Positions 10,938 through 15,417 of a DNA stretch of 64,000 nt are shown in pieces. Positions within the stretch are counted from its first letter, which is position 1. Every line of letters starts with the position of its first letter. The stretch is from the NCBI RefSeq assembly GCF_016907235.1, contig NZ_JAFBBO010000001.1, positions 2,542,001-2,606,000 of the forward strand, given 5' to 3'. The DNA comes from Oerskovia jenensis. Lineage in GTDB: Bacteria; Actinomycetota; Actinomycetes; Actinomycetales; Cellulomonadaceae. Position numbers and translations under genes: made by a program. The notes beneath the pieces are model-generated. The model was not told the DNA's origin and searched no databases. It saw nothing but the letters and a program-made list of their open reading frames with translations.

Positions 10938-12461
10938 TCAGGCTCCCGTGACCATCCACCGGTCGCCGCGCGCACGGAGCCCCGTGGTCAGGGCGCGCGC
11001 CGCCATGAAGACCCCCGCGAAGGCCGCCCACAACCACGCGAGCCCAGCGGCGCCGTCGGGCGCGAGAGCGCGGACCGCGAGGGCCACCGGGACGTACACG
11101 ACGAACGTGACCATGCCCGCCCACGCGAGGTAGCGGCCGTCCCCGGCGCCGATCAGCACGCCGTCGAGGACGAACACCCACCCCGCCATGGGCAGCAGCA
11201 GCCCGCACACGGCCATGCCGAGCGCGACGGCGGCGCGGACGTCGGGGTCGGACGTGAAGAGCAGCGCGAACCACCAGCCGCCCGCGGCCATGACGAGGCC
11301 CAGCAGCGCGCCCGCGCCGACGCCCCACTGCAGCGTGCGACGCAGGACCGAGCGCACGTGCGACCGGTCTCCCGCGCCCAGGCCGTGGCCCACGAGGGCC
11401 TGCGCGGCGATCGCGAGGGCGTCGAGCGCGAACGCCGCGAGCCCCCACACCGACGCGACCACCTGGTAGCCCGCGAGCGTGACCTCGCCCAGGCCCGTCG
11501 CGACGAAGACCGTCAGGAGGATCGCGAGGCGCAGCGAGAGCGTGCGGACGAGCAGCGGCGCGCCCGCGCGCGCGTTGGACCAGATGCCGCCCGCGGCGGG
11601 GCGCAGCGACGCGCCCTCGCGCCGGGCACCACGCACGACGACGACGGCGAGCACCGCGCCCATGGTGAGCTGCGCGACGGCCGTCCCGATGCCCGAGCCC
11701 GCGATGCCCAGGCCCACGCCGTACACGAGGACCACGTTGAGGACCGCGTTGAACGTCGCGCCGCCCGCGGCGACGTAGAGGGGCGTGCGGGTGTCCTGCA
11801 GGCCGCGCAGCACGCCCGTGGACGCCAGGACGACGAGCATGCCCGGCAGGCCCAGGCCGGACCATCGCAGGTACACCAGCGCGTGCTCGGCGACCTCGCC
11901 CGTGCCGCCCATCGCGCCGATCGCCCAGCCGCCCCCGATCCACAGGGTCGCCGCGAGCACCAGGCCCAGGCCCAGCGCGAGCCACATGCCGTCGATCCCC
12001 GACTGGAGCGCCTCGCGCCGGTGGCCCGCGCCGATGCGCCGGGCCACGGCCGCGGTGGTCGCGTAGGCGAGGAAGACGCACAGGCCCACGAGGGTCAGCA
12101 GGACCGTGGAGGCCAGGGAGAGCCCGGCGAGCTCTGCGGTCCCCAGATGCCCGACGACGGCGCTGTCCACGAGCACGAAGATCGGCTCCGCGACGAGCGC
12201 GCCCAGGGCGGGGACCGCGAGAGCGAGGATCTGCCTGTCGATGAGCCGACGGCTGGGGGGCCCGTCCGCTGTGGACGGCCCGTCCCCTGTGGACGACGAC
12301 GGGCCGTGCGGGGTGCCCTCGGTGGACGGGGAGCGGTCCTCGGATGAACGGGGTGAACGACCGGCGTCGGAGCGCTGACCTGGGGCTGGCTGGCGTGCGT
12401 GCGGCGTGTCGCCGGAATTTCTTTCGTCCACACCCCCGAGCCTAGTGAACAGGCTGCTCAT
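10938..12461 (-). CDS. MATE-family multidrug/Na+ exporter (DinF-like)
   Basis: This is a 507-residue membrane protein. After a polar, disordered N-terminus of ~70 residues, twelve hydrophobic segments begin with the MATE signature LALAVPALGALVAEP and VDSAVVGHLGTAELAG, typical of the DinF branch. It would export organic cations or drugs using an ion gradient. No clear ribosome site precedes the ATG at 12461; a GTG at 12431 after a GGGGG run is an alternative start. Two DnaA-box-like 9-mers (12270, 12288) fall inside its 5' coding part. A PDGAAG stretch near 11050 is encoded by the GGCGCCGTCGGGC repeat. Confidence 0.88.
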   Translation of the reverse strand: MSSLFTRLGGVDERNSGDTPHARQPAPGQRSDAGRSPRSSEDRSPSTEGTPHGPSSSTGDGPSTADGPPSRRLIDRQILALAVPALGALVAEPIFVLVDSAVVGHLGTAELAGLSLASTVLLTLVGLCVFLAYATTAAVARRIGAGHRREALQSGIDGMWLALGLGLVLAATLWIGGGWAIGAMGGTGEVAEHALVYLRWSGLGLPGMLVVLASTGVLRGLQDTRTPLYVAAGGATFNAVLNVVLVYGVGLGIAGSGIGTAVAQLTMGAVLAVVVVRGARREGASLRPAAGGIWSNARAGAPLLVRTLSLRLAILLTVFVATGLGEVTLAGYQVVASVWGLAAFALDALAIAAQALVGHGLGAGDRSHVRSVLRRTLQWGVGAGALLGLVMAAGGWWFALLFTSDPDVRAAVALGMAVCGLLLPMAGWVFVLDGVLIGAGDGRYLAWAGMVTFVVYVPVALAVRALAPDGAAGLAWLWAAFAGVFMAARALTTGLRARGDRWMVTGA

Positions 12462-12566
12462 GGGCGTGTACAGGGGACAACTCGTCACTTGTCCACATGG
12501 TTGTCCACATGCCTGTGAACAGGCTGACGGGGTCTGTCCACAGGCTGTCCACACCTCTGTGAACAG
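12270..12566. promoter_or_regulatory. Cluster of DnaA-box-like 9-mers upstream of dnaB
   Basis: Two perfect TTGTCCACA boxes (12489-12497, 12501-12509) match the preferred DnaA box of high-GC actinobacteria. Near-matches are CTGTCCACA at 12534 and 12545, TCGTCCACA at 12424, CTGTTCACA on the minus strand at 12514 and 12558, and TCGTCCACA/CCGTCCACA on the minus strand at 12288 and 12270. Nine sites in 300 nt straddle the MATE start and stop about 190 nt before dnaB. No dnaA or dnaN is nearby, so this is probably not oriC itself; a DnaA-titrating or dnaB-regulating site is inferred. Confidence 0.7.
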
Positions 12567-12759
12567 GGTCGTTTGCGGGGGATGGAAGCGCGATCTACTG
12601 TCGCTGAGTCGTGCATGCTCGGGCCTACGGACGGTCGACGGTGCAGCACCACACGACACCCCTCGACGACGCGGGCTCAAGACGTGTCGGTGGGCCGGAG
12701 TAGAACAGATGTGCGACGCAGGACGATACCCGGCCATGCCGGGGGAGTGAGGGGCCCGC

Positions 12760-15417
12760 ATGTCGATCGACGAGCTCGAGTCGAGCTTCGGACCACCCGC
12801 AGGCAGCGGCGGTCCCGGGTTCGACCGCACCCCGCCGCAGGACATCGCGGCCGAGCAGAGCGTCCTCGGCGGCATGCTCCTGTCCAAGGACGCCATCGCG
12901 GACGTGATCGAGCAGATCCGCGGCACCGACTTCTACAAGCCGGCGCACGAGTCGATCTACGACGTCGTCATCGACCTCTACGGACGAGGTGAGCCCGCCG
13001 ACGCCATCACGGTCGTCGCCGAGCTGACGCGCCGCGGCGAGCTGGGCCGGATCGGCGGCGCGCCCTACATCCACGACCTCATGGCCATGGTCCCCACTGC
13101 GGCCAACGCGGGCTACTACGCCCGCATCGTGCGCGAGCGGGCCGTGCTGCGCCGCCTCGTCGAGGCCGGGACCCGGATCGTGCAGCTCGGCTACGCGACC
13201 GACGGCGGCGACGTCGACGACGTCGTGAACAACGCGCAGGCCGAGGTCTACGCCGTGACCGAGCGACGCACCGCCGAGGACTACATCGTCCTGGGCGAGG
13301 TCATCGGCGGGACGGTCGACGAGATCGAGGCCGCGGGTCACCGCGGGGAGGGCATGGTGGGCGTCCCGACGGGGTTCGCCGACCTCGACCGGCTGACCAA
13401 CGGGCTGCACCCCGGGCAGATGATCGTGATCGCGGCACGCCCGGCCATCGGGAAGTCGACGCTGGGAATCGACATAGTAAGGAGTGCTTCCATAAAGCAC
13501 AACATGACGTCCGTCGTGTTCTCGCTCGAGATGAGCCGCAACGAGATCACGATGCGTCTGTTGGCTGCCGAGGCGCGCATCCACCTGCAGAAGATGCGCA
13601 ACGGCTCCATGGGGGAGGACGACTGGCAGAAGCTCGCAGGCACCATGGGCAAGATCTCCGAGGCGCCGCTCTTCATCGACGACTCGCCCAACATGTCGCT
13701 CATGGAGATCCGCGCCAAGTGCCGCCGGCTCAAGCAGAAGCACGACCTCAAGCTCGTCGTGATCGACTACCTCCAGCTCATGACGTCGGGCAAGCGCGTC
13801 GAGTCCCGCCAGCAGGAGGTCTCCGAGTTCTCCCGTGCGCTCAAGCTCCTCGCGAAGGAGCTCGAGGTGCCGGTCATCGCGATCTCTCAGCTGAACCGTG
13901 GCGCCGAGCAGCGTACGGACAAGAAGCCCGCTATGTCGGATTTGCGTGAGTCGGGCTGCCTCACAGAGGACACCAGGATCCTGCGAGCGGACACGGGCGC
14001 TGAGACCACGATGGGCGAGCTCTACGCGCTCGGTGCCAAGGACGTCCCCGTGTGGGCGCTCAACGAACGCCTCCAGTATGTGCGCCGCCACCTCACGCAC
14101 GTGTTCCCCACCGGGACGCGCGAGACGTTCCGCCTCAAGCTGGCCTCCGGCAAGGAGATCAGCGCGACCGCGAACCACCCGTTCCTCACGTACGAGGGCT
14201 GGACGCCGCTCGGCGAGCTGCAGGTGGGCTCGCGCCTCGGCGTGCCCCGCCACGTCCCCGGACCGGAGCAGAGCGTCGCGTGGGACGACCGCAAGGTCGT
14301 CATGCTCGCCCACATGCTGGGCGACGGCTCGTTCGTCAAGCGCCAACCCATCTGCTACGCGTCGATCGACGAGAAGAACCTCGCGGTCGTCTCGGAGGCC
14401 GCGGGTGCCTTCGGCATCACCCCGATCCGCGACGAGTACGCGGTCGCCCGCTGCACCACACTGCGGCTCCCGGCTCCCTACCGACTGGCCCGCGGCAAGC
14501 GGAACCCCGTCGCCGAGTGGCTCGACGACCTGGGTCTCTTCGGGGCGCGGAGCCACGAGAAGTTCGTGCCCTCGACCGTGTTCCACCTGCCCAAGGAGCA
14601 GATCGCGCTCTTCATCCGGCACATCTGGGCGACCGACGGCTCGGTGACCGTCAACGCCAACGGCCGCAGCGGCCGCATCTACTACGCCTCGACCTCACGA
14701 CAGCTCGTCGACGGACTGTCCCGCCTGCTGCTGCGCTTCGGCATCTCCACCCGCCTTCGCACGGCCACCCCCAAGGGCGCGTACCGGACCGGGTACACGC
14801 TCGACATCTCCGGCGTGGACGACCAGCGGCGTTTCCTCCAGGAGATCGGGGTGCACGGTGAGCGCGGGGCCGCCGCCGAGAGGCTCCTCGAGATCATCCG
14901 CGACACCCGCGCGAACACCAACGTCGACACCGTGCCGCGCCAGGTGTGGGACGACGTCCGAGTGCTCCTCGAGGAGCGCGGGATGTCGCACCGGAAGTTC
15001 GCCGAGGCCATGGGGACGCAGTTCTGCGGGAGCACCCTGTTCAAGCGCTCCCCGTCCCGGCAGCGGCTCGGGAAGATCGCGGAAGTCCTCGACAGCGAGG
15101 AGCTCGAGATCATGGCGGTCAACGACCTGCTGTGGGACGAGGTCGTCTCCATCACCCCCGAGGGTGAGAAGCCCGTCTACGACGCGACCGTGGTCGGCAC
15201 CCACAACTTCGTCGCCAACGGCATCGCCGTCCACAACAGCATCGAGCAGGACGCCGACATGGTCATCCTGCTCCACCGCGAGGACGCCTACGAGAAGGAG
15301 TCTCCGCGAGCCGGCGAGGCCGACCTGATCGTCGCCAAGCACCGTAACGGCCCGACCGACACCATCACGGTGGCGTTCCAGGGGCACTACGCGCGGTTCG
15401 TGGACATGCAGGTCTGA
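12760..15417 (+). CDS. dnaB: Replicative DNA helicase DnaB precursor containing an intein
   Basis: The precursor is 885 residues. After splicing, the exteins (1-399 plus 827-885) give a 458-residue DnaB, the normal size. The N-terminal domain (about 25-130) binds primase, and the RecA-like ATPase domain has Walker A ARPAIGKST (226-234), Walker B LVVIDYLQLM and the C-terminal SIEQDADMVILLHR. The hexamer unwinds DNA at the fork. The intein sits within a conserved ATPase motif, so helicase activity should need splicing. Codons 236-245, just after the P-loop, are unusually AT-rich (ATA, GTA, AGG, ATA). Start ATG follows GTGAGGGG. Confidence 0.97.
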   Translation: MSIDELESSFGPPAGSGGPGFDRTPPQDIAAEQSVLGGMLLSKDAIADVIEQIRGTDFYKPAHESIYDVVIDLYGRGEPADAITVVAELTRRGELGRIGGAPYIHDLMAMVPTAANAGYYARIVRERAVLRRLVEAGTRIVQLGYATDGGDVDDVVNNAQAEVYAVTERRTAEDYIVLGEVIGGTVDEIEAAGHRGEGMVGVPTGFADLDRLTNGLHPGQMIVIAARPAIGKSTLGIDIVRSASIKHNMTSVVFSLEMSRNEITMRLLAAEARIHLQKMRNGSMGEDDWQKLAGTMGKISEAPLFIDDSPNMSLMEIRAKCRRLKQKHDLKLVVIDYLQLMTSGKRVESRQQEVSEFSRALKLLAKELEVPVIAISQLNRGAEQRTDKKPAMSDLRESGCLTEDTRILRADTGAETTMGELYALGAKDVPVWALNERLQYVRRHLTHVFPTGTRETFRLKLASGKEISATANHPFLTYEGWTPLGELQVGSRLGVPRHVPGPEQSVAWDDRKVVMLAHMLGDGSFVKRQPICYASIDEKNLAVVSEAAGAFGITPIRDEYAVARCTTLRLPAPYRLARGKRNPVAEWLDDLGLFGARSHEKFVPSTVFHLPKEQIALFIRHIWATDGSVTVNANGRSGRIYYASTSRQLVDGLSRLLLRFGISTRLRTATPKGAYRTGYTLDISGVDDQRRFLQEIGVHGERGAAAERLLEIIRDTRANTNVDTVPRQVWDDVRVLLEERGMSHRKFAEAMGTQFCGSTLFKRSPSRQRLGKIAEVLDSEELEIMAVNDLLWDEVVSITPEGEKPVYDATVVGTHNFVANGIAVHNSIEQDADMVILLHREDAYEKESPRAGEADLIVAKHRNGPTDTITVAFQGHYARFVDMQV
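13957..15237 (+). mobile_element. DnaB intein with LAGLIDADG homing endonuclease
   Basis: Residues 400-826 of the DnaB precursor (427 aa) form a class 1 intein. Cys400 follows SDLRESG and the C-terminus is VHN before Ser827 of SIEQDAD, the same site as the Synechocystis and Rhodothermus DnaB inteins. Block A is CLTEDTRILRADTG, block B contains TANH, block F is VYDATVVGTHNFVANG, and block G is IAVHN. The two endonuclease motifs MLAHMLGDGSF and FIRHIWATDGS keep their acidic residues, so the homing enzyme looks intact. GC content and codon use resemble the host gene, suggesting long residence. Confidence 0.95.

Follow-up and report, generated by a model that had tools for sequence, protein, structure and literature searches.

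The dnaB gene of Oerskovia jenensis lies in a window of 64,000 nucleotides taken from the 4,453,691-base genome (genome positions 2542001-2606000; positions below are those of the window unless marked as genomic). Its product matches the Pfam families DnaB N-terminal (4e-33), DnaB_C (9e-102), Intein_splicing (5e-22), and LAGLIDADG_3 (9e-26), and residues 1-247 are identical to those of the Oerskovia douganii protein (L001). An intein with a LAGLIDADG domain extends from 13957 to about 15237 within the gene; in several of the sampled relatives, too, the dnaB frame is far longer than 460 amino acids. A gene for a MATE transporter diverges from dnaB, and the DNA between the two contains a cluster of DnaA boxes, a predicted promoter (P1), and a second promoter-like motif (P2) (Table 1).

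Table 1. Features at the dnaB locus. Distances are counted from the first base of the predicted -35 element of P1 to the start of the box; changes are relative to TTGTCCACA.
Feature	Position	Strand	Remarks
MATE transporter gene, divergent	10938-12461	-	Pfam MatE, 6e-44; upper limit a guess, because the ATG ending at 12461 is not conserved in all relatives
Two outer box-like sites, CCGTCCACA and TCGTCCACA	12270-12296	-	In or just before the MATE frame; poorly conserved
Outlying DnaA box, TCGTCCACA, one change	12424-12432	+	TCCACA conserved in 14/16 aligned rows
DnaA box, TTGTCCACA, perfect	12489-12497	+	-84; register compared among loci
DnaA box, TTGTCCACA, perfect	12501-12509	+	-72
DnaA box, CTGTTCACA, two changes, inverted	12514-12522	-	-59
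DnaA box, CTGTCCACA, one change	12534-12542	+	-39
DnaA box, CTGTCCACA, one change	12545-12553	+	-28; commonest plus-box position among the compared loci
DnaA box, CTGTTCACA, two changes, inverted	12558-12566	-	-15; ends 6 nt before the predicted -35
P1, predicted sigma-A-like promoter of dnaB	12573-12601	+	TTGCGG (12573-12578), 17-nt spacer, TACTGT (12596-12601)
P2, PafBC/RecA-NDp-type motif, TGTCGG-N10-TAGAAC	12685-12706	+	Last base C instead of T
SOS-box-like GAACAGATGTGC, overlapping P2	12703-12714		One change from GAAC-N4-GTTC
dnaB, replicative helicase with intein, presumed target gene	12760-15417	+	Pfam matches (see text)

The reference sequence for the boxes, TTGTCCACA, is given in PMC4285127 as the high-affinity box for both M. 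tuberculosis and S. coelicolor. Counting both strands, the 297 nt from 12270 to 12566 (genome 2554270-2554566) hold ten sites with at most two changes from it: two perfect, four with one change, and four with two. A preliminary description of this DNA had reported nine boxes in 300 nt upstream of dnaB, two of them perfect, and the recount bears this out, the tenth being TTGTCCCCT at 12472. Six sites with at most one change compare with 0.02 expected (Poisson probability 7e-14, for a single window at genome density). Elsewhere in the 64 kb window there are two one-change sites and none that is perfect, and no other 297-nt stretch, taken in 10-nt steps, has more than one site with at most one change. 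The whole genome (4.45 Mb) has 18 perfect sites. If one change is allowed the count rises to 289, against 267 for a reversed control pattern, so that single near-boxes are mostly background. Pairs of boxes are another matter: a scan for two copies of TGTBVACA no more than 30 nt apart found eight places in the genome, five of them in the cluster, two at oriC, and one at genome position 2331251, and the reversed control gave one place. The genome-wide scan suggested in the preliminary description as a check on the cluster thus showed paired clusters to be rare, with the one upstream of dnaB among three paired-box loci in 4.45 Mb. That it arose by chance or from base composition, as the commonness of near-boxes in the genome might suggest, is hardly credible in view of this rarity, the Poisson value, and the conservation in relatives described below; we regard it as already refuted.

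The conserved core of the cluster, from 12489 to 12566, packs six boxes into 78 nt. They form two plus-plus-minus triplets, 44-45 nt apart, and all six share roughly the same face of the helix. In the alignment columns of the inverted box at 12514-12522, relatives have TGTGCACA, TGTGAACA, or TGTGGA. For comparison among loci a strict box was defined as [TC][TC][GA]T[CT]CACA. Oerskovia flava (L005) has only two of these, its other aligned sites being degenerate, and has no strict match at the sites corresponding to 12270 and 12288; these two outer sites are probably incidental. P1 reads toward dnaB, and its 17-nt spacer also appears in five aligned loci (L002, L005, L014, L016, and L017).

Conservation of boxes in relatives, the other check suggested beforehand, holds at all three levels sampled: within the genus, among named loci, and across the class Actinomycetes. 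The five box pairs of the cluster, recognised by sequence and spacing, recur in 6/6 other genus genomes. The 80 named loci, the best of 440 confirmed matches, lean to near relatives because of that choice; within 600 nt upstream of dnaB these 80 contain 234 strict boxes in 47,432 nt (4.93 per kb), compared to 43 in 470,637 nt (0.091 per kb) for the rest of the same loci, and every one of the 80 has at least one strict box there. Three records with ill-fitting labels (Bifidobacterium breve, Acidobacteria, and Sporosarcina: L055, L071, and L080), whose dnaB loci are 69-72% identical to the Oerskovia jenensis one over the matched part, are probably mislabelled or contaminated; they are included in the counts.

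Two further samples, both hand-picked and mostly from different families, with some families taken more than once, comprised 52 of 107 other class genomes listed and 28 of 136 genomes from other classes of the phylum. Forty-seven of the 52 class genomes have at least one strict box within 800 nt of dnaB (105 boxes in all), and five have none; the reversed pattern yielded seven boxes in seven genomes. Control regions of the same sample held one box in 31,252 nt of dnaB coding sequence, and one in the next 400 nt upstream of the 800 (20,800 nt in all). Outside the class, six of 28 genomes have boxes (nine boxes; none in the control). Three of the loci from other classes (L102, L116, and L107) carry a pair of minus-strand boxes, separated by 53-55 nt and lying 75-191 nt before the dnaB match; this may be another version of the same control.

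The boxes go with dnaB rather than with its neighbour. Among the named loci (best 80 of 440 matches), MATE genes were sought by tblastn (E up to 1e-5) in at most 3 kb of upstream DNA, with only 150 and 484 nt for L057 and L077. All 33 loci with a MATE gene upstream have boxes (mean 2.8), as do all 47 in which none was found (mean 3.0). A link between cluster and MATE gene was therefore rejected, boxes being equally frequent either way, and the cluster is assigned to dnaB because boxes precede that gene with or without an adjoining MATE gene.

The arrangement of the boxes relative to the promoter was compared in 121 class loci, which remained of 133 after removal of near-duplicates and of L057, with too little upstream DNA. 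Boxes on the same strand tend to stand multiples of about 11 bp apart, with 55 as a peak value, and for plus-minus pairs the preferred spacings are 13-14. The promoter pattern TTGNNN-N16-18-TANNNT, of which the first occurrence within the final 500 nt before dnaB was used, was found in 84/121 loci (reversed control 6/121), a proportion that leans on the named loci, mostly Micrococcales, since the class sample alone gives 27/52 (control 4/52); the remaining 37/121 had no match. In the other classes the pattern was found in 6/28 loci (control 3/28).

Where the pattern is present, boxes take preferred positions relative to it. Between the -35 element and the end of the closest upstream box there are 5-9 nt in 25 loci, 15-19 nt in another 25, and 20-24 nt in eight. 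Plus boxes start at -30 to -27 in 40/84 loci, and minus boxes at -17 to -13 in 15/84; a strict box occupies one of these two commonest positions in 46 loci, and neither in 38. Other plus-box peaks are near -16, -39, -73, -83, and -94. Measured against the -35 element, the phase of the plus boxes (122 boxes in 71 loci) gives R = 0.81 at 11.0 bp, and R = 0.84 when only one locus per family is kept (10 families); none of 2000 random shifts gave as high a value in either case. The register value, too, leans on near relatives.

This register bears on what the array might do. DnaA represses its own gene in some bacteria. It would be quite unlikely, although not without precedent, for DnaA bound at the array to repress dnaB or the divergent MATE gene. 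The array does lie between divergent genes, and DnaA can act as activator or repressor (PMC8203912, accessible part), but a simple repressor should sit over the core promoter, and only 2/84 loci have a strict box there; boxes are also present where no MATE gene was found upstream. In M. tuberculosis, moreover, the DnaA variant I282T binds less upstream of dnaB, and dnaB is under-expressed (PMC7738170, accessible part): weaker binding goes with lower, not higher, expression, the reverse of what repression would give.

The cluster is outside oriC, as the preliminary description had said, but its "away from any dnaA" is too strong: dnaA (genome 2521037-2522464) is only about 32 kb off. The genes dnaN and dnaA with the box-rich region between them span genome 2518512-2522464, and the intergenic region itself (genome 2519676-2521036; 1361 nt) is 33 kb from the cluster. 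Boxes at genome 2515079-2515099 are within the gyrB coding sequence and were judged incidental. The 297 nt of the cluster hold six sites with at most one change, and the 1361 nt of the dnaN-dnaA intergenic region hold ten; with up to two changes allowed, there are ten and 25. The cluster is thus the denser of the two. A density equal to or above that of an origin could conceivably mark a secondary replication origin, or the remnant of one, beside dnaB. This is highly improbable, however: the usual place for the origin in this class is beside dnaA and dnaN, where the cluster does not lie and where a box-rich region is found 33 kb away, and the array is tied to the promoter register.

The same density, the five of eight genomic box pairs that fall in the array, and its position 33 kb from oriC could also be accounted for if the array served mainly as a reservoir, titrating DnaA or lowering DnaA-ATP when copied soon after oriC, with its position at dnaB secondary. 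Several observations make this unlikely as the main role. A pure reservoir needs no particular register to a promoter, but the boxes keep a preferred one to the likely dnaB promoter; they stay with dnaB when its neighbour differs, which a pure reservoir would not need either; and most relatives have only one to four strict boxes there (75/80 named loci, from the best 80 of 440 matches, and 43/52 class genomes). By our own yardstick a reservoir should lie free of any gene's promoter, and the phase values, unequalled by random shifts, place this array otherwise. It is because of the promoter register that the reservoir, proposed in the preliminary description by analogy with datA and without direct support here, is treated as a rival reading. 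Some titration of DnaA may occur as a side effect of the array.

A clearer candidate for a reservoir lies elsewhere, about 190 kb from oriC. This second cluster (genome 2331227-2331291; L083:5228-5292) consists of several box-like sites in a block some 55 nt long, between converging genes which by eye encode a GH3-type hydrolase and a livF-type ATPase. Of six aligned genus genomes, five carry the block with hardly a letter changed and the sixth (G246) lacks part of one end, while the left flank diverges. In 30/61 family genomes there is a comparable double box with at most three changes, whatever its position (reversed 0/61). The block at genome 2331227-2331291 is a better candidate for a DnaA reservoir than the dnaB array. 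A third site, 27 nt around TGTGCACAGAATCTGTGGATAACTCT (genome 2941406-2941432; L205), recurs in 7/7 genus genomes searched, differing by one base at most.

Downstream of P1, the P2 motif resembles the PafBC motif TGTCGG-N10-TANNNT (PMC8151990, accessible part). A loose version is found upstream of dnaB in 46/121 class loci (reversed 1/121) and a stricter one in 27/121 (reversed 0); the class sample has the motif in 12/52 (reversed 0), and neither version was found in the 28 loci from other classes. Two WYL-domain matches in the genome, at 306180 and 307246, are about 1 kb apart on one strand, and may be pafB and pafC. The M. tuberculosis dnaB gene is reported to depend in part on PafBC and to have a putative SOS box (PMC8151990, accessible part). 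A LexA operator over P2 would be a full GAAC-N4-GTTC palindrome, from which GAACAGATGTGC differs by one base; by eye, the full palindrome overlaps P2 in five of the 46 loose hits, all Cellulomonas. An SOS box as a general feature of dnaB is unsupported: the class loci show no excess of SOS-box-like sites (25/121, against 29/121 for the reversed pattern), which occur in 6/28 loci of other classes (reversed 0).

Several DnaA boxes thus lie directly upstream of dnaB, next to a likely promoter. The interpretation we favour, with a probability of roughly 0.7, is that they form the array through which DnaA regulates a dnaB promoter, with bound DnaA activating dnaB. The layout is that of an activator because the boxes are on roughly one face of the helix and are tied to the -35 element but not placed over it; together with the mycobacterial and Caulobacter data, this makes activation of dnaB by DnaA the most likely reading. 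Since the array adjoins the likely promoter and most sampled relatives have a similar layout, DnaA probably sets the amount of helicase. The direction of the effect is drawn from this geometry and from a single mutant of a distant relative, in which the protein may be defective in other ways as well, and six boxes exceed what an activator needs, which speaks against activation. The suggestion in the preliminary description that the cluster is a control element, tying the supply of helicase to the level of DnaA, gains support, as an inference, from the independence of the MATE gene, the register, and the I282T result.

As to mechanism, DnaA would fill the two boxes adjoining the -35 element together with the upstream triplet, and the resulting oligomer, in a class-II-like position, could touch RNA polymerase and raise dnaB transcription. 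The supply of helicase would thereby follow the amount or activity of DnaA. A PafBC-type P2, nearer the gene, would raise dnaB expression after DNA damage without DnaA. The sites, their conservation, and the register are shown here; binding, activation, and the order of filling, like the promoters P1 and P2 themselves, are inferred. A more tentative generalization, to which we give somewhat less than even odds, is that the class Actinomycetes shares a helically phased DnaA array activating a housekeeping promoter, with a PafBC-type damage promoter below it, as a feed-forward loop from initiator to helicase. If so, helicase supply would be coupled to the initiator class-wide, and the PafBC promoter would free dnaB from DnaA when forks break.

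To our knowledge, the matching of helicase supply to initiation in actinobacteria has been little studied, and a DnaA array on the dnaB promoter would provide a direct and testable link between initiator and helicase in non-pathogenic organisms. It also helps in telling promoter-type clusters of DnaA boxes from likelier reservoirs, such as that at genome 2331227-2331291. Earlier work had established DnaA binding before dnaB in two mycobacteria, as well as dependence of dnaB expression on DnaA in M. tuberculosis and Caulobacter; new here are the shared register of the boxes with P1, and the P2 motif outside mycobacteria. No description of either was found in the literature searched, which is weak evidence, subscription papers being mostly outside the search.

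Known systems offer several points of comparison. In E. coli, datA forms an IHF-dependent complex. Like the array described here, datA and the DARS sites are DnaA-binding elements outside oriC, but they are not arrays at the promoter of a helicase gene. They are non-coding, and alter the nucleotide state of DnaA (PMC4585315, accessible part).

Among actinobacteria, Smulczyk-Krawczyszyn et al. in 2006 reportedly studied the DnaA-box clusters H69, H24, and D78 near oriC of Streptomyces coelicolor as reservoirs setting the frequency of initiation. H24 may be the dnaB region. These are likewise clusters outside oriC, but they were reportedly studied as reservoirs, not promoter arrays.

In Caulobacter crescentus, of a distant phylum, dnaB belongs to the DnaA regulon, with predicted DnaA boxes before the gene and DnaA-dependent expression (PMC8203912 and PMC7738170, citing Hottes et al. 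2005; accessible parts). P2 has TGTCGG, the 10-nt spacing, and TA in common with the mycobacterial PafBC (RecA-NDp) promoters, but the last base of its -10 element is C, not T. For mycobacteria there are both in vitro and in vivo demonstrations of DnaA binding, and a link to dnaB expression, whereas the Oerskovia array is known from its sequence; on the other hand, the latter has six boxes in 78 nt, in two triplets, and the accessible part of the mycobacterial account (PMC7738170) describes no register of boxes to the dnaB promoter. According to the same part of that account, M. tuberculosis DnaA binds five regions, one of them upstream of dnaB (Rv0057), and ChIP-seq located DnaA upstream of dnaB in M. 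smegmatis: in both of these, likewise actinobacteria, DnaA is bound directly before the helicase gene, where the boxes of Oerskovia are found.
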